From Cyclobacterium marinum DSM 745 (GTDB lineage Bacteria; Bacteroidota; Bacteroidia; Cytophagales; Cyclobacteriaceae), in NCBI RefSeq assembly GCF_000222485.1, contig NC_015914.1, forward strand, positions 1,054,001-1,118,000: a stretch of DNA of 64,000 bases, given 5' to 3'. Of this stretch, positions 26,160 to 35,130 are shown piece by piece (within the stretch, counting starts at the first letter, position 1; the number at the start of each line of letters is the position of its first letter). The position numbers and the translations under genes are program-made. The notes below the pieces were generated by a model. That model ran no database searches. It was not told the origin of the DNA and saw nothing but the letters and a program-made list of their open reading frames with translations.

Positions 26160-27248
26160 TCAAAGCTCTAGCAAATTTGGAAGATATACAAGGACCTCTG
26201 TACCATTTCCGGGAGTTGAATTCAGTTCTACTTTTCCTTTGAGTTGCTCTATAGATTCTTTAACCATATAGAGTCCAAGACCTGAGCCAACATTTCTCTG
26301 GGTGGCTCGATGAAAAAGATTAAACACATCATTTTTGTGTCTTTCTTCAATCCCTATTCCATTATCAGAAATATGGATCACTGCTGTTTCTTGATTTGCC
26401 TTTATGACAATTTTTATCCATTTACCGGGTTCATCCTTTTGAAACTTAAAGGCGTTACTGAATAAATTATTAAGGATGACCCTAATTTTTGATTCATCCG
26501 AATGAAAAGATTCCTCTTGTTCTATCGCCACACATAATTCAATCCCTGTAAGGTTCCATTTTGCTTTATATTCAGCTAGCAATTGGTCTAGAATCCCATT
26601 GAAATTGATGGCTACAACTTTATTTTCAATTTTTGTGGACCTGTAAAAATCCAGCATTTTATAAATAAAGTCATCCAATTTCAATGTGGCAGAATCAATC
26701 ATTTCAAAATATTCAATGATCCCCGGATCTGAAACTTCCATTTTGGCAAGCTTGGATATCCCCGAAATACTCATGAGGGGGCCACGCAATTCGTGTGACA
26801 AACTGTATACAAACTGATTCATTTCAGAATGCAGCTTCTGCAATCGTGTATTTTTTTCTTTTAATTCCTTTCTTGCGTCAAATATTTCAGCCGCATTTAA
26901 AATTGCATTTTTTATTTGCTCAATATTCCAGGGCTTATCAATAAAACGATAAACCTCACCTCTATTGATGGCGTCAATAACACTTGAAATATCCGAATAA
27001 CCGGTTAATAATATTCTAATAGGGTCGGGGTTAATTTCAACAAGCTTTTCGAAAAACTCAACGCCTGTCATTCCAGGCATCCTTTGATCAGCAATGACCA
27101 CCTGAAATTCATAATTTTTTGCAAGGATCAGCCCCTCCTCAGCATCCATAGCTGTTTGCACTTTAAACTCTTTCCTCAATGCTGCCTTGAATGAATTCAG
27201 ATTATTATCCTCATCATCAATGTACAGCACATCGATCCTTTTCCTCAT
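26160..27248 (-). CDS. Response regulator receiver-histidine kinase hybrid
   Basis: The 362-residue soluble protein has an N-terminal receiver domain (about 5-122) with acidic pocket D11/D12, phosphoacceptor D54 in IADQRMPGMTG, T82 and K105. A short linker coiled coil follows. A HisKA domain has the phosphoacceptor H152 in SLSHELRGPL, and an ATPase domain has NNLFSNAFKF, DNGIGI and GSGLGLYMVKES. The receiver-first layout suggests a phosphorelay intermediate whose kinase activity is set by its receiver. It is the last gene of a four-gene operon, starting 3 bases after the stop of a membrane sensor kinase that is its likely upstream partner. Its receiver closely resembles that of the divergent gene at 31444. 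It has no DNA-binding domain. Confidence 0.92.
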   Translation of the reverse strand: MRKRIDVLYIDDEDNNLNSFKAALRKEFKVQTAMDAEEGLILAKNYEFQVVIADQRMPGMTGVEFFEKLVEINPDPIRILLTGYSDISSVIDAINRGEVYRFIDKPWNIEQIKNAILNAAEIFDARKELKEKNTRLQKLHSEMNQFVYSLSHELRGPLMSISGISKLAKMEVSDPGIIEYFEMIDSATLKLDDFIYKMLDFYRSTKIENKVVAINFNGILDQLLAEYKAKWNLTGIELCVAIEQEESFHSDESKIRVILNNLFSNAFKFQKDEPGKWIKIVIKANQETAVIHISDNGIGIEERHKNDVFNLFHRATQRNVGSGLGLYMVKESIEQLKGKVELNSTPGNGTEVLVYLPNLLEL

Positions 27249-27251
27249 CTG

Positions 27252-29390
27252 TTATCCTTTTTGGTTAACCGGCAATCCTATATAAAAAACTGTCCCTACA
27301 TTTTCTTCAGATTCTACCTCTAAGGTTCCTTTATGGTTCTCTAATATAATGGTATACACAATAGAGAGTCCAAGCCCAGTACCTTTGCCAACTGCTTTAG
27401 TGGTAAAAAATGGGTCAAAAATCTTCTCTTTGACACTTTCCGGCATTCCTATACCGTTATCCTTGATTTCAATCATAACAAATCCATTTTTAAAGGAAGT
27501 GTTAATCGTTAGTTCAGGTTCTCTACCTTCAATAGGATGATCCAGAAGGGCATGAATGGCATTACTAATGATATTCATAAAAACCTGATTTATTTTTCCT
27601 GCAAGGCATTCTACCATAGGAATTTCCTCGTAGTTTTTATTCACTTTAATCCTACCAGAAATAGTACTATTAAGTAAGATCAATGTACTATCCAATCCTT
27701 CTCGTAGGTCAACTTCTTTGACATCTTGCTCATCTACCCGCGAAAACAATTTCAATCCACGAACAATCTCTACAGTCCTTTTGGCACCGTCTTCCATCCC
27801 GGTAAGCAATTGATCCACTTCTTCTAAAAGGTATTCAAACTCAATATCTTCTTCCAGTTCTTCAATCTCCTCTTTACTTTCTTCTGAAAATTCCAATTTA
27901 CCTTTCTCTCGATAAACATCCATCAACTCTAAAATATCCTTCATATCTCTCTTTAGCGGTGATATGTTGGAACTTACAAAGTTAATGGGATTATTAATCT
28001 CGTGTGCAATACCCGCTGTTAACTGACCCAAAGAGGCCATTTTCTCTTGATTCACAAGTTGGGTTTGTGTATTTTGAAGGTTTTTGAGCGTCAATTCCAG
28101 TTCTTCTGTTCTAGACTTAACCATTTTTTCCAAGTAAATGTTTTGCTCTTTTATCAACCTTTCATTTTCTTTTACCGCTTCCAACTTATCTATTTGCTCT
28201 TTTTCTTTCTCTTTCTTTAATATATTGATTTTATCAGCCAAAGCAAAAGAAAGTAATAGGGCTTCTATAGCTGTTCCCGCCAATAATGGGGCATTGGCAA
28301 AGGAACCCAGATTAATGATCATCAAATTATGAAGGATATAGACCACCAAGCCAATCAACAAAAAGCTCCAAGCCAACAAAAAGAAGTAGGCTGATCGATA
28401 CCCCCCTTTTGCCGCAATTATTCCAATGGTAAAGAAGCAAATGGCTAAAATTAAACCATTCAAATCCATTATTGAATAACTGATCTCAATTACACCTAAC
28501 ACCCTTAATACCAGGGCAACTATATAGGAAATAGGGATGAGGTAAAGGTATTTCTCGTATTTCGGCACATATTCATCCGTTTTTAAAAAAAGCTGGATGA
28601 AAGGAATTACAAAGATACTCGATAAAGTAGTAAAGCCTATGATACTAATTTCGTAGAGAAAGGCATTCTCACCGAGAAGAAAGAATGAATGTCCGGAAAT
28701 TGATAGTTGGGCCAAGGCAATAAACAATATATAAAAACAATAGAATAAATAAACTTTGTCTTTTACCGAAAAATAAAGTATTAAATTATAGATAAAAAGG
28801 GCAATCATTATTCCAAAGTAAACACTAATGATAATGAGCCTAAAACTATAATTTTGAAAATAAGAGGAATAAGGAAAAATATAAGCCTCAAATTTTAATG
28901 GAACTTGGGAAGCTATTCTTAACACAATTGATGAATTAAGCTCCCCATCAAGTTTAATATTAAAAAAGGGACTGGGATTTTTCAACGGGTTTGAATTCCC
29001 AACTATGGTGCCCGCAATTTCTTTATAAACAAGGTTACCTTCAGTATCAAACCGAAACATTTCTACCTCCCTAAATCCCGGATTAGTCAATTCAAGGATG
29101 TATAGGCTATCTGAATTCAGCCAATTAAAGTCATTGAGGTCAAGTTTTACAAATAAATTATTGTTGATTGCCCCTAAGTCAATTCCTCCAAAGGCTGTAG
29201 AATCAAAGGTATTCAGATTTAATTCATTTTTTACAGAGGTATTATCCCCCACATAATAGGTGTAATGACTAAACCTAAATTCATCGTCCTGCTTAAGCAT
29301 CCCTAAGAAATAGATGGTAGGGATGATAAGCACCACTAGTAATAAAAATGTTAAAGCTGCATATTTAAAATAGGGATTATTCTTTTTCAT
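27252..29390 (-). CDS. 7TMR-DISM sensor histidine kinase
   Basis: The 712-residue inner-membrane kinase starts MKKNNPYFKYAAL, with a transmembrane helix at about 9-30. An extracytoplasmic sensor domain (about 35-175) follows, then seven hydrophobic helices (about 178-386) of the 7TMR-DISM type, a coiled coil, and a HisKA domain with H463 in GIAHEINNP. The ATPase domain has QVFMNIISNAIHAL, DNGIGMP and GKGTGLGLSIVY. An in-frame ATG 57 bases upstream would add 19 residues without signal character and deepen the overlap with the previous gene, so I prefer 29390. That start overlaps the preceding gene by 14 bases. 7TMR-DISM proteins are thought to sense extracellular carbohydrates or other small ligands; this ligand is unknown. 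Confidence 0.92.
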   Translation of the reverse strand: MKKNNPYFKYAALTFLLLVVLIIPTIYFLGMLKQDDEFRFSHYTYYVGDNTSVKNELNLNTFDSTAFGGIDLGAINNNLFVKLDLNDFNWLNSDSLYILELTNPGFREVEMFRFDTEGNLVYKEIAGTIVGNSNPLKNPSPFFNIKLDGELNSSIVLRIASQVPLKFEAYIFPYSSYFQNYSFRLIIISVYFGIMIALFIYNLILYFSVKDKVYLFYCFYILFIALAQLSISGHSFFLLGENAFLYEISIIGFTTLSSIFVIPFIQLFLKTDEYVPKYEKYLYLIPISYIVALVLRVLGVIEISYSIMDLNGLILAICFFTIGIIAAKGGYRSAYFFLLAWSFLLIGLVVYILHNLMIINLGSFANAPLLAGTAIEALLLSFALADKINILKKEKEKEQIDKLEAVKENERLIKEQNIYLEKMVKSRTEELELTLKNLQNTQTQLVNQEKMASLGQLTAGIAHEINNPINFVSSNISPLKRDMKDILELMDVYREKGKLEFSEESKEEIEELEEDIEFEYLLEEVDQLLTGMEDGAKRTVEIVRGLKLFSRVDEQDVKEVDLREGLDSTLILLNSTISGRIKVNKNYEEIPMVECLAGKINQVFMNIISNAIHALLDHPIEGREPELTINTSFKNGFVMIEIKDNGIGMPESVKEKIFDPFFTTKAVGKGTGLGLSIVYTIILENHKGTLEVESEENVGTVFYIGLPVNQKG

Positions 29391-30087
29391 TGTTTGGCTT
29401 TGGGACTTGAAGTTCAAACTGTAATTCCATTTCCCCTTTCGGACCACTCTCTACAGTATTAAAATTTATTTTATTCCTCAATTCAAAAATGTAATCTCTT
29501 TCAGCTTCTTGGGCCTGTGATAATTCATTAATGTCATTTATTTCCAAGGCGGTAGCTATTAATCCTTCTTTGGGATAGTAAAAGGAGCCTTTGTCTCCTA
29601 ACCCCGTAATAATTTCATAACCTACACTTTTAGATATACTTAAAGTCACAGGAGAGCTCAATCCAAATAGCTTTTTCAAATCCAATTGGGGAAGAATTGC
29701 GATCCCTACCCGAACCAAATAGATGCTACCTATTCCATACCCTGCTACCTCTCTGCTGTTCCATAGGCCACAATATTCAGCCACTTCCAAATCTTTAAAC
29801 TCAGAAAGATAATCTTCAATCTTTGGATCAATATCTTTGATGGCCAATTCAAATGGTAAGGGGAAATTTTCTGTTCTAAGCTGAATTCTTCCACCCCCCA
29901 AAATTCTTTGGTCGTCCATAGATTCAAAAAGGATGAGATATACATGAGGATTAAGAGCCCATGATCTATCAGCTGATGTTACTTTAGTTATCCCATAAGA
30001 TTCCAAAACCTTATGGTGACCAAAAATGTACTTCTCTGTAGCCTCGACATCATCTATTGCCCTAACTATCCTTACTCTAACTTTCAT
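29377..30087 (-). CDS. GNAT/autoinducer-synthase-like acyltransferase (putative)
   Basis: The 236-residue protein has no signal peptide. Its layout resembles the acyl-CoA/acyl-ACP N-acyltransferase fold used by LuxI-type and FeeM-type synthases: an N-terminal YIFGHHKVLESYGI helix, a central strand pair PHVYLILFES...ILGGGRIQLRT, and AEYCGLWNSREVAGYGIG leading into a helix (about 100-125), where the V/P-loop would bind the pantetheine. I can see the pattern but not a definite family. It overlaps the ThiF-like gene by 11 bases and the sensor kinase by 14, so the three are translationally coupled. A plain GNAT modifying the product of the ThiF enzyme is an equally good reading. Confidence 0.6.
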   Translation of the reverse strand: MKVRVRIVRAIDDVEATEKYIFGHHKVLESYGITKVTSADRSWALNPHVYLILFESMDDQRILGGGRIQLRTENFPLPFELAIKDIDPKIEDYLSEFKDLEVAEYCGLWNSREVAGYGIGSIYLVRVGIAILPQLDLKKLFGLSSPVTLSISKSVGYEIITGLGDKGSFYYPKEGLIATALEINDINELSQAQEAERDYIFELRNKINFNTVESGPKGEMELQFELQVPKPNNEKE

Positions 30088-31186
30088 TAAAATTGATTAT
30101 CTTGTCTAAATCAACATAAAACCTTCCTGAATCTATTTTTTGATCCAATAATAATAGCCTTGCATAATGACAACAAGCTGCCCCTCCTAAAAAAACAGAA
30201 GATGCTAACTGAGGCCAAGATGTAATGGATTTTCCTAGCTCAGAAAAACTAAATTTCACTCTTGGTGAAAGATTATCAAATTGCAACAATGACATCATCA
30301 TCTCTTTGCCACTTTCTGACAATCTTGACATAATTTTATCCTCTGGCCCAAATTCTGCCAATAATCCATGAAAAATTAATCGATCGGGGTCTAAATCAAA
30401 CCTCTCGATATCCATCATACCACGGTCACTTGTATCCATTAAAACAGGTATTTTAAGCGCCTTCGCTTTAATTCTACTCAAGAGCTTAATCGGTAAACTA
30501 TCACATTCTTCAATCAATAGATCCATTTTTCCGTTTAAGTTAAAAAAATCATTGATATTATCCTCAATAATCCCTTCATTATATACGGTAACTTTCAAAT
30601 AGGGGTCAATTTCAGCTATTTCTCTTGCAACTATCCATGATTTCTTCAATCCGATGTTATAAATCCCAGTTCTTATCCGATTCATATTACTCAAATCCAA
30701 GGTATCGAAATCAGCAATTCTAATCTCTCCAAAACACCTTTCCATTGCCAAGCTTAAAGCAACGCTTTGCCCCACCGAAAGACCAATAATTCCGACAATC
30801 TTTTTTTGAAGCAACTCTTGTTCTTCATCTGTAATTTTATAACGATTTCGGAGAGTGCGCAATTTCACAAATTCTTTTTCTTCTAAAATCCGAACCATCG
30901 TATTTCTCCAAGGGTAATAAACCCATACCCCATTTTCAGAAGCTGGCAATCCGGAATTATTATAAAATTCTTGTTTTTTTTCTTCTGTCTCCTCCTGAGA
31001 CAGTTTTCTTGATGGATTTTGTGATTTGATAAGTTCCGCTAGCTGTAAATCAAAGGAATCAAAAAACATTATTTTACCTGTTGCTAGAAGTTTTTTGAGC
31101 TCATTTTTATCCTCCTCATTTTTTGGGGAGAATAGAACAGGCTTGAAGGACTCATTAAACTCACTAATCTTAATTGAGTTTTCCAT
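30077..31186 (-). CDS. ThiF/E1-like adenylyltransferase family protein
   Basis: The 369-residue protein has about 125 N-terminal residues of unknown type followed by a ThiF/MoeB/E1 Rossmann domain. VGIIGLSVGQSVALSLA (131-147) is the nucleotide loop, and DFDTLDLSNMNR (159-170) is the diagnostic ThiF motif, including the Asn and Arg that contact ATP. EECDS (227-231) holds the Asp expected near the magnesium. I find no CxxC zinc pairs, and no obvious E1-type catalytic cysteine; the only cysteines are C151, C228, C339 and C340. It would activate a carboxylate by adenylation; the substrate is unknown. It may resemble the ThiF part of mycobacterial Rv1355c-type proteins (from memory, unchecked). 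It is first in the operon with the acyltransferase-like and kinase genes. Confidence 0.82.
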   Translation of the reverse strand: MENSIKISEFNESFKPVLFSPKNEEDKNELKKLLATGKIMFFDSFDLQLAELIKSQNPSRKLSQEETEEKKQEFYNNSGLPASENGVWVYYPWRNTMVRILEEKEFVKLRTLRNRYKITDEEQELLQKKIVGIIGLSVGQSVALSLAMERCFGEIRIADFDTLDLSNMNRIRTGIYNIGLKKSWIVAREIAEIDPYLKVTVYNEGIIEDNINDFFNLNGKMDLLIEECDSLPIKLLSRIKAKALKIPVLMDTSDRGMMDIERFDLDPDRLIFHGLLAEFGPEDKIMSRLSESGKEMMMSLLQFDNLSPRVKFSFSELGKSITSWPQLASSVFLGGAACCHYARLLLLDQKIDSGRFYVDLDKIINFNES

Positions 31187-31443
31187 AAATATAAGTAACT
31201 AAAAAAGGAGATAATGTAGGTAAAGTTATATTTTTGTTATTACAAATAATCAAGTGAGAAGAATTAATTTATTATTTTTTTGCAATTCAGTTTTAATTCA
31301 TTAATTTATAAAATAAACTTTTGAATATAAATATATTAGGCTTAAACTAGTAGATCAATTTGAAAACAGGTTAAATTTGCTTAAAATTAAAAATTCAAGT
31401 TTTAAATCTTTGCAATTAATCGCGGTATTTCGATATTTAAGGT

Positions 31444-31908
31444 ATGGAAAAAAATAAAATCAGAATCCTTTATGTGGATGATGAGGTCAATAACTTGAAA
31501 GCGTTTAAGGCCACTTTTAGAAGAGATTACAAGATTTTTTTAGCAGATTCTGCTGATGAGGGTAGGGATATTTTGCTTCAGGAAGACATTGATATAATCA
31601 TTACTGATCAAAGAATGCCCAAAGAAAACGGCGTGGATTTTCTGGAATCAATTATACCAATGCACCCTGACCCAATGCGTATATTGCTAACAGGATACAC
31701 TGATATTCAAGCAGTAATTGATGCTATTAACAAGGGAAAAGTATATCACTACTTAACCAAACCATGGGAAGAAGACTACCTTCGAACTGTTGTAAAAAAT
31801 GCTTACGAAGTATTCTCCCTTAGGAAAGAAAACAAACAACTGACAGACAGCCTATTGAAGGCAAATGATCAACTAGAATTTCTCCTAAGACAAAATCTTC
31901 TTTCTTAG
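31444..31908 (+). CDS. Stand-alone response regulator receiver protein
   Basis: The 154-residue protein is essentially one receiver domain (about 5-125) with D12/D13, phosphoacceptor D55 in IITDQRMPKENG, the LLTGYTD switch residue and K of LTKPWEED. A short charged C-terminal helix follows. It shares DDE-x-NNL, DQRMP, PDP-x-RILLTGY and VIDAIN with the hybrid kinase at 26160-27248, so the two are close paralogues. With no output domain, it probably acts as a phosphate shuttle or by protein binding. It is transcribed divergently from the ThiF operon across 257 AT-rich bases that contain isolated TAnnTTTG boxes (31229-31236 and 31372-31379) on the plus strand. Confidence 0.92.
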   Translation: MEKNKIRILYVDDEVNNLKAFKATFRRDYKIFLADSADEGRDILLQEDIDIIITDQRMPKENGVDFLESIIPMHPDPMRILLTGYTDIQAVIDAINKGKVYHYLTKPWEEDYLRTVVKNAYEVFSLRKENKQLTDSLLKANDQLEFLLRQNLLS

Positions 31909-33576: not shown

Positions 33577-35130
33577 TTATTTTGGCTGTAAATGTACGAT
33601 AGGAATAATCATTTCCTCCAAAGAAACGCCTCCGTGCTGAAAAGTATCCCTATAATAATTAACATAATAATTGTAATTGTTAGGATAGGCAAAGAAATAA
33701 TCTTCAACAGCAAAAACATAACTGGAGGAGATATTTAATCGAGGCAGCCTGGCTTCATCAGGCTTGTCGACTTCAAATACCTTTCCAGATTCAAAATTAA
33801 GGTTTTTTCCTTGTTTATACCTTAAATTGGTAGTAACGTTTCGATCGCCAATGATTTTATAAGGCTTGTTGACCCGCTTGGTCCCATGATCCGTAGTGAC
33901 AATAACTTCTGCACCGGCAGCACTTATTTTTTTAAATAGTTCAAACAATGAACTATGAAGGAACCAGCTAGTGGTTAACGAGCGGTAGGCAGATTCATCC
34001 GGAGCCAATTCTCTGATCATTTTCATATCGGTCCTTGCATGAGACATCATGTCCACAAAATTGTAAACAAGCACATTCAATTCATTTTTCATCAGATTAG
34101 GAAACTGATCCAAAACTGCTTTGCCTTGGTTTGTTTGAATGATCTTATTATAGCTGGATCGTATTGAAAGTCTATTTTTCTTTAGGTTTACATTTAGGAA
34201 CTCCTCTTCATGGTTGTTTTTACCTTCATCTGTATCCTCTCCCTCCCATAAATCAGGGTGAGATTTAGCCATTTCCAAAGGCATCATACCACTAAACAAG
34301 GCATTCCTTGAAAAGGCTGTGGTGGTAGGTAATATACTATAATACGTCCCGTTTTCTTTCACCAAAAAATAATCCCTGAGTTGATTTTCAATCATTTCCC
34401 ATTGATCCAGCCTCAAATTATCAATCACAATAAAAAATAAAGGTTTGTCCTGCTTCAATTTAGGGAAAACATGTTTTTTCATCACCTGGTGAGATAAAAC
34501 AGGCTTACTAATTTTCGGCAGGTTTAACCAATCCAAGTAATTTTCCTTTATAAAACGGGCAAAGTTTGCATTGGCTTCTACTTTTTGAGATTCCAGCACT
34601 TCCTGCATACTTTTATTCTCCGTTTCATCTATTTCCAGCTCCCAGTAAGTCAGCTTCTTATAAATATCTACCCATTCCTCATGATCAATGGCATCATTAT
34701 AGGCCATGCTAATGTTCCTAAAATCTTGTTGATAGGAGAGATTGGTCTTCTCGCTAATCAATTGCTTATTTTGCAGGATTTTCTTAACGGACAGAAAAAT
34801 TTGATTTGGGTTGATTGGCTTGATTAGATAATCGGCAATTTTACCACCAATTGCATCATCCATGATATGCTCTTCTTCACTCTTAGTGATCATCACTACA
34901 GGAATTTGAGGTTTTAATGTTTTGATTTGTTGTAGAGTTTCCAGGCCTGTCATCCCGGGCATCATCTCATCCAAAAAAATCACATCAAAATTATCTTCTT
35001 CCACTTTCTCTATGGCATCCAGACCACTATTTACTGTAACTATATCATAACCTTTCTGTTTTAAGAATAAAATATGTGGTTTTAGAAGATCAATCTCGTC
35101 ATCTGCCCATAATATTTTGAAATTTTGCAT
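33577..35130 (-). CDS. porX: T9SS response regulator PorX (receiver-PglZ)
   Basis: PorX controls the type IX secretion system. The 517-residue protein has a receiver domain (1-120) with D10/D11 and the phosphoacceptor D54 in IFLDEMMPGMTG. A helical linker follows, then a PglZ/alkaline-phosphatase-like domain with IVIDNLRLDQWE, the TTTAFSRNALFSGMMP nucleophile region and VTTDHGTKRV metal ligands. In P. gingivalis the PglZ part cleaves oligonucleotide second messengers; the visible metal residues suggest this domain is intact. The usual kinase partner PorY is not in the window. It heads a porX-tsaE-ald operon. The T9SS-exported protein at 15326 is a plausible downstream beneficiary. Confidence 0.95.
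   Translation of the reverse strand: MQNFKILWADDEIDLLKPHILFLKQKGYDIVTVNSGLDAIEKVEEDNFDVIFLDEMMPGMTGLETLQQIKTLKPQIPVVMITKSEEEHIMDDAIGGKIADYLIKPINPNQIFLSVKKILQNKQLISEKTNLSYQQDFRNISMAYNDAIDHEEWVDIYKKLTYWELEIDETENKSMQEVLESQKVEANANFARFIKENYLDWLNLPKISKPVLSHQVMKKHVFPKLKQDKPLFFIVIDNLRLDQWEMIENQLRDYFLVKENGTYYSILPTTTAFSRNALFSGMMPLEMAKSHPDLWEGEDTDEGKNNHEEEFLNVNLKKNRLSIRSSYNKIIQTNQGKAVLDQFPNLMKNELNVLVYNFVDMMSHARTDMKMIRELAPDESAYRSLTTSWFLHSSLFELFKKISAAGAEVIVTTDHGTKRVNKPYKIIGDRNVTTNLRYKQGKNLNFESGKVFEVDKPDEARLPRLNISSSYVFAVEDYFFAYPNNYNYYVNYYRDTFQHGGVSLEEMIIPIVHLQPK

Follow-up and report, generated by a model that had tools for sequence, protein, structure and literature searches.

A five-gene module of Cyclobacterium marinum predicted to join oxazolone-type enzymes to a 7TM receptor kinase

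According to our analysis, positions 26,160 to 31,908 of a 64,000-nucleotide window from Cyclobacterium marinum DSM 745 (genome of one contig, 6,221,273 bases; Cyclobacterium nearest) hold a five-gene module predicted to make an oxazolone-type product and to sense it through its own membrane kinase. The minus strand carries the genes for a ThiF-type cyclase (30077..31186; 369 amino acids [aa]), a FeeM-like acyltransferase predicted to be an N-acyl amino acid synthase (29377..30087; 236 aa), a seven-transmembrane (7TM) histidine kinase of the 7TMR-DISM kind, which is the predicted receptor (27252..29390 from an ATG, 712 aa; a longer frame, beginning at the GTG at 29447, is also listed), and a receiver-HisKA-HATPase hybrid, the predicted second relay component (26160..27248). 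The ThiF and acyltransferase genes overlap by 11 nucleotides (nt) and the acyltransferase and 7TM kinase genes by 14 nt, while a gap of 3 nt precedes the receiver-kinase. A lone receiver without output domain (31444..31908, plus strand; Response_reg, 68.5 bits), whose codons 31873..31905 encode the conserved C-terminal tail LEFLLRQNLLS, is divergent from the ThiF gene at a distance of 257 nt. The A+T-rich region between them (31187..31443) contains blocks conserved in an alignment of nine Cyclobacterium sequences and likely holds promoters for both directions. Layout and coordinates are thus those described in an earlier note on this DNA. Of the domain labels given there, Pfam supports ThiF, 7TMR-DISM_7TM, HisKA, HATPase_c and Response_reg, which cover four of the five genes; the acyltransferase label stayed below the Pfam cut-off.

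The ThiF protein matches the Rv1355c family model (NCBIfam NF005901) with 435.5 bits over model positions 6 to 340 of 722, that is, over its first half only, and does not reach the full-length cut-off of 476 bits; three relatives carrying a fusion of ThiF to a desaturase score above 730 bits. The next family follows at 61 bits, and an assignment as a thiamine, molybdopterin or tRNA enzyme was rejected, those models giving at most 61 bits versus 435 for the Rv1355c family. The protein is 39 to 41% identical to actinobacterial relatives, with an invariant Cys228-Asp229 pair, and we infer that Asp229 corresponds to the published Asp217 of TrzS. In the published pathway, represented by OxzAB, TyzACB and TrzAS, an N-acyl amino acid is formed and then an oxazolone (PMC12856293, PMC10404671). 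By its homology to TrzS, the ThiF protein is predicted to close the oxazolone ring on an N-acyl amino acid. A second ThiF-domain gene (266 bits) lies elsewhere in the host genome. On a plasmid of Streptomyces sp. NBC_01471 (L168), the gene of a ThiF-only relative overlaps one with a GNAT family annotation, with no desaturase or kinase directly adjoining and with a sensor and a response regulator about 5 kb away.

For the acyltransferase, neither Pfam (best match 13.8 bits, cut-off 27) nor NCBIfam gave a family match, and by sequence it belongs to no curated family of known N-acylhomoserine lactone (AHL) synthases, so that its likeness to these enzymes is one of fold. A Foldseek comparison, based on the top 1000 chains and hence on a list that cannot exclude other folds, gave it the fold of FeeM and the AHL synthases. 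The fold was used for the assignment because sequence kinship with the actinobacterial neighbours was not found. Taken together, fold and gene neighbours lead us to predict an N-acyl amino acid synthase.

The 7TM kinase combines Pfam 7TMR-DISM_7TM (127.4 bits) with HisKA and HATPase_c, which identifies it as a 7TMR-DISM sensor kinase; 7TMR-DISMED2 scores 19.2 bits in the window protein (cut-off 22) and 99.8 bits in a relative (L118). Its His463 is invariant in 38 relatives. The structural model (pLDDT 78.5, pTM 0.56) places a periplasmic beta domain at about residues 42 to 173 and transmembrane helices at about 174 to 355, with the last helix ending at 355 and the signalling helix beginning at 367; the fold comparison covered the kinase part only. 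Asp12, Asp13, Asp55, Thr83 and Lys106 of the lone receiver are invariant in 26 relatives, and Pfam detects no DNA-binding output domain on either receiver protein. One locus (L052, genome G031) has the kinase in two pieces, one of 145 aa with DISMED2 and one of 542 aa with the 7TM and kinase parts. In L118, L126, L136 and L155, an extra single-domain receiver of 129 to 133 aa follows the receiver-kinase, and genes of similar size stand at this place in many Spirosomataceae loci.

The earlier note had suggested searching Bacteroidota genomes for co-occurrence of the five genes. Species genomes scanned with an alignment of the acyltransferase yielded 460 relatives, and the following counts refer to the best 80 of these 460 loci, with genes called by a longest open reading frame (ORF) rule. 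All 80 have the 7TM kinase and the lone receiver, 78 have ThiF, 73 the receiver-kinase and 71 all five genes; a ThiF protein longer than 600 aa, presumed to be fused, occurs in 34. Among the seven loci lacking the receiver-kinase, L113 and L116 lie at contig ends and L095 is possibly an artefact of the longest-ORF rule, so that the gene seems truly absent from four related loci (L105, L108, L110 and L111). The loci belong to the Cyclobacteriaceae (39), Spirosomataceae (25), Cytophagaceae (3), Chitinophagaceae (2) and Sphingobacteriaceae (1), with 10 others or unplaced; neither the relative order of ThiF and acyltransferase nor the side on which the lone receiver stands is constant in this pool, which holds some genomes twice. 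In the 11 other Cyclobacterium genomes searched, the gene order is the same throughout, which disposes of the possibility that the operon is peculiar to one strain; in the draft assembly of Cyclobacterium qasimii M12-11B (L060/L072), the ThiF frame is split in two (216 and 149 aa), through loss or sequencing error. Two contigs of metagenome-assembled genomes titled Azovibrio (Pseudomonadota; L126) and uncultured Bacteroides (L127) carry near-identical modules, and at least one of them is probably mis-binned.

Since the flanking TsaE, AlaDH-like and PPase genes are also conserved in the Cyclobacteriaceae, that family alone proves little about a functional unit. Synteny as the cause of co-occurrence was nevertheless rejected, as nine loci of other families (L118, L137, L151 to L155, L174 and L175) have no flanking gene like those of the window. 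Across the phylum, the acyltransferase was found in 13 of 395 sampled Bacteroidota genomes, each time (13/13) with the 7TM kinase adjoining, and the 11 genomes with a ThiF half above 140 bits are all among these 13. Within Bacteroidota, the enzymes are therefore not mostly apart from kinases, and the synthase is genetically linked to a multi-pass receptor kinase, as in LuxM/LuxN, in both the phylum sample and all 80 best loci. In the Cyclobacteriaceae, 110 of 390 genomes and 22 of 84 genera have the acyltransferase. The type IX secretion system response regulator PorX (833 bits) is encoded near the module, at 33577-35130, as it is in Cyclobacteriaceae relatives.

If the kinase reads the product, the acyltransferase and the sensor part should vary together. 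For the genus Algoriphagus, 51 genomes with the acyltransferase gene (one duplicate) and 3 further loci gave a set of 53 loci which, where the contig allows, share one place between the AlaDH-like and PPase genes. Their acyltransferases fall into three types of 8, 18 and 27 loci. Mean identities within and between types are 74 and 42% for the acyltransferase, 39 and 17% for the periplasmic domain of the kinase and 76 and 36% for its 7TM part, whereas the rest of the module differs far less, with 84 and 83% for the signalling helix and kinase, 81 and 79% for the receiver-kinase, 87 and 85% for the lone receiver and 66 and 58% for the ThiF half. The flanks hardly differ (TsaE 62 and 62%, AlaDH-like 83 and 83%, PPase 93 and 93%), and an earlier run on 42 loci showed the same pattern. 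In the closest pair of different type, L156/L197, identity is 99% for AlaDH-like, 91% for the ThiF half, 96% for the kinase and 98% for the receiver-kinase, yet only 46% for the acyltransferase, 21% for the periplasmic domain and 38% for the 7TM part. The DNA of this pair is 86% identical on either side of an unalignable 1.6 kb, and that of L217/L201 behaves likewise (82-83%). The borders in both pairs are the acyltransferase gene start and the end of the 7TM part; the alignment from Algoriphagus relatives places the equivalent tract of the window at 28266..30087 on the minus strand, comprising the acyltransferase and kinase residues 1 to about 375.

A comparison of 20-residue blocks over the 288 type 2 by type 3 pairs of the 42-locus run gave the same picture. 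Compared with the within-type value, between-type identity is 25-40 points lower in the acyltransferase and 5-56 points lower in kinase residues 1 to 380, while it stays within 5 points of the within-type value for every kinase block from residue 381 and within 7 points throughout the ThiF-desaturase (ThiF-FDO) fusion. Acyltransferase type and 7TM type, set separately, agree in 52/52 Algoriphagus loci with a full kinase and in 51/51 loci of a set including other genera. On a quick flank tree of 51 loci, which was made partly from genes of the same locus and covers 42 of the 53 Algoriphagus loci, the types must have changed at least 12 times, including 9 times inside Algoriphagus. Type 1, with ThiF alone, occurs in Cyclobacterium, Lunatimonas, Belliella, Anditalea, Algoriphagus and an Echinicola; types 2 and 3 have the ThiF-desaturase fusion, and type 3 comprises Algoriphagus and genomes of two other genus codes. 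Within the three types, the partial correlation with the acyltransferase is 0.97, 0.71 and 0.90 for the sensor versus 0.74, 0.58 and 0.40 for ThiF. In Dyadobacter (24 loci, 276 pairs), it is 0.77 for the periplasmic domain, 0.88 for the 7TM part, 0.64 for ThiF and 0.03 for the receiver-kinase, the lone-receiver column of this comparison containing wrong picks. Since the acyltransferase and the sensor half change together and their surroundings do not, we regard these comparisons of natural variants as strong evidence that the kinase would read the enzymes' product. The proposal of the earlier note that the two enzymes make a small molecule sensed by the kinase is thereby supported, together with the match to the oxazolone pathway and the conservation of the unit.

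The tailoring enzyme, too, varies between loci. Beside the same acyltransferase, kinases and receivers, we found ThiF alone, the ThiF-desaturase fusion, both in the family of the window and in others, an ICMT/PEMT-type methyltransferase in place of ThiF (L174, L175), an FAD-binding oxidase (L147) or no tailoring enzyme (L136). ThiF and ICMT enzymes act on carboxylate substrates, and capping of the acid group may be the common purpose of these enzymes; this purpose we only infer, because the methyltransferase of L174 and L175 scores nearly as high against PEMT, an N-methyltransferase family (60 bits), as against ICMT (71 bits).

The lone receiver ends in the pattern LEFLLRQ-x-LLS, which was scored in 148 receivers, 144 of them from acyltransferase loci and some from genomes present twice. 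The tail is found in 144/144 receivers of acyltransferase loci (141 strict, 3 near), including those where ThiF is absent (L136, L147, L174, L175). The other 4 of the 148 lack it and come from exactly the loci that have the kinases but no enzymes; 6 further receivers from genomes without the acyltransferase are also tail-less, giving 10/10, although these cases stem from few genera and hence from few independent losses, and the ends of the L181 and L228 receivers may be decayed tails. Eight loci (L150, L153, L155, L158-L161 and L176) had no lone receiver over the threshold and were not scored: L155 has a 163-aa receiver gene of only 24 bits which nonetheless ends in EFMLRHSLLS, L150 has a 206-aa receiver without the tail at a contig end, and no lone receiver is in view in L153, L176 or the FAD-oxidase loci L158-L161. 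Because the tail tracks the acyltransferase, it suggests a docking site, with direct output on the acyltransferase.

Related loci are found in which the module is reduced or replaced. Five loci of one genus (code g86; L171, L182, L183, L226 and L227) have the receiver, the 7TM kinase and the receiver-kinase at the same place without the enzymes, and in L180, L181, L228 and L229 only a tail-less lone receiver is left between the AlaDH-like and PPase genes. A tblastn search of the gaps in kinase-only genera for degraded enzyme genes gave nothing convincing (best E 0.03). The g86 loci also contain a fast-changing small ORF with the conserved start MRLAS.LDL before the kinase, overlapping the kinase start by 4-7 nt in 4/5. 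They may represent a listener lineage, a lineage with the small ORF as replacement signal gene, or a remnant. In a sister clade (L055, L056, L158-L164), a distant acyltransferase is paired with a FAD_binding_4 oxidase and the receivers of the module are missing; another histidine kinase adjoins the pair in 7 of the 8 Cyclobacteriaceae loci covered (L056, L158-L161, L163 and L164, not L162), and L055 has a 7TM-SpoIIE protein there. A lactonase-family gene follows the pair in L158.

The reading we favour, and consider probable, is a self-contained signal-receptor module of the LuxM/LuxN kind with oxazolone chemistry, known here from its genes. The FeeM-like acyltransferase, judging by fold and neighbours, would couple an acyl group to an amino acid, whose free carboxylate the ThiF-type enzyme, by homology to TrzS, would activate with ATP to close the oxazolone ring. 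Because a desaturase is absent, the expected product would be a saturated N-acyl-amino-acid oxazolone. This would reach the periplasm or the membrane, where the kinase would recognise it through its periplasmic domain and 7TM part, a step supported by the repeated joint exchange. Domains and conserved residues point to a phosphorelay made up of the 7TM kinase, the receiver-kinase hybrid and the lone receiver. In the weakest step, the tail of the lone receiver, a protein without DNA-binding domain, probably binds the acyltransferase, or the complex that this enzyme forms, and would feed back on signal production. The whole would resemble quorum sensing of the membrane-kinase kind, several specificity types existing side by side in one genus.

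Several observations weigh against this reading. The flavin-dependent desaturase of the known pathways is absent from the window, and a search for one acting in trans, with a relative's desaturase half as query, gave no match at E 0.001 in 12 Cyclobacterium genomes, where a more distant one is possible. Outside Bacteroidota, the ThiF family adjoins other genes, such as GGDEF in Rhodococcus, and in Actinomycetota it does not stand beside 7TM kinases of this kind. No kinship in sequence was found between the acyltransferase and the proteins encoded beside actinobacterial Rv1355c genes, in comparisons that included a profile of 2 sequences. ThiF also differs among the Algoriphagus types, with 50% identity between type 1 and the others versus 65% within types (42 loci). 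Two genera retain the kinases but not the enzymes, which fits listeners or another function. Finally, the acyltransferase and the sensor part are contiguous, so that a single recombination event could move both.

The alternative that survives best, although we think it unlikely, is a regulated lipid pathway in which the kinase responds to some unrelated cue from outside or from the envelope, the receivers turn the enzymes on or off, and the oxazolone serves as a membrane, stress or redox lipid. The lack of a DNA-binding output on either receiver, the tail that tracks the acyltransferase, the kinases kept without enzymes in two genera and the finding that the oxazolones of published systems are mostly in cells rather than in the medium would all fit, but such a pathway fails to predict that the periplasmic and 7TM parts of the kinase change with a cytosolic acyltransferase while receivers and kinase half stay. 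It is improbable that the product is an antimicrobial with the kinase as the producer's self-sensor. N-acyl tyrosine derivatives can be antimicrobial (PMC12856293), and exchanged toxin-and-warning pairs would predict the joint exchange equally well, but the conserved unit includes neither a transporter gene nor an immunity gene. Quite improbable, in our view, is a linkage artefact, in which a recombination-prone stretch carries two neighbouring genes, contiguous as they are in Algoriphagus, without functional matching. Linkage alone is a weak account of the joint exchange, because ThiF-FDO, which adjoins the acyltransferase at its opposite end, takes no part in the exchange between types 2 and 3, and because inside every type the sensor follows the acyltransferase more closely than ThiF does; mismatched combinations also number 0/52. 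We give hardly any credence to the other proposal of the earlier note, that the enzymes modify a relay protein by E1-like conjugation or acylation: the ThiF fold and weak partial matches to E1-E2 anti-phage defence (at most 34 bits) are set against the far better Rv1355c/TrzS cyclase match, the absence of the defence partner gene and of any outstanding E2 or protease from the conserved unit, and the small-molecule-type methyltransferase in ThiF's place at two loci.

The signal-receptor reading can be extended, tentatively, to a Bacteroidota quorum-sensing family with carboxyl-capped N-acyl amino acid signals, a FeeM-like synthase, an exchangeable capping enzyme, a 7TMR-DISM receptor kinase, specificity types predating genera, synthase-less listener lineages and a receiver tail whose docking on the synthase would give direct control over signal production. 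The locus ties oxazolone-type enzymes to a dedicated receptor kinase and offers three natural types at one chromosomal place in one genus. If the proposal is true, Bacteroidota would gain acyl-amide signalling with membrane receptors, and a group of 7TMR-DISM receptors a predictable ligand.

The founding oxazolone paper is said to be that of de Rond in 2021. OxzAB, TyzACB and TrzAS resemble the module in having a FeeM/BjaI-fold N-acyl amino acid synthase beside a ThiF cyclase of the same family; the window differs in lacking the desaturase and in joining the enzymes to receivers and a 7TM receptor kinase. In the tryptazolone study, the physiological role of oxazolones is named as a major open question, and the trz genes of Mycobacterium tuberculosis lie near cyclic di-GMP genes; that study makes no use of the terms two-component, histidine kinase or receptor (PMC12856293). 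According to the same paper, oxazolones are destroyed by acid and by alcohols. Stieleriacine-type N-acyl tyrosine clusters, so far as the accessible part of their description goes, likewise contain genes for ThiF, a nitroreductase and a methyltransferase together with that for an N-acyl amino acid synthase, in producers named from Pseudomonadota, Actinomycetota and Planctomycetota, but the word kinase is absent from that part (PMC12479983). In the accessible literature, with subscription papers and preprints mostly outside, we found oxazolone papers and none linking them to a receptor kinase, in line with the earlier note, which knew of no described system with this content.

In Vibrio, LuxM/LuxN and AinS/AinR pair the synthase of an acyl-amide signal with a neighbouring histidine kinase that spans the membrane several times. 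The adjacency of synthase and membrane kinase genes is shared by the module, whereas the Vibrio systems have AHL chemistry, another synthase family, receptor family and phylum, and no ThiF step. In the specificity groups of agr and comQXP, the signal-making gene and the sensor part of the adjacent kinase co-vary while the kinase part is conserved. The same joint variation of maker and sensor with a conserved kinase is seen in Algoriphagus, except that the signals of agr and comQXP are peptides and the maker here is an acyltransferase. By analogy, the module would act as an acyl-amide signal read by a membrane kinase, differing in its enzymes, receptor, chemistry and phylum and having matched specificity types.

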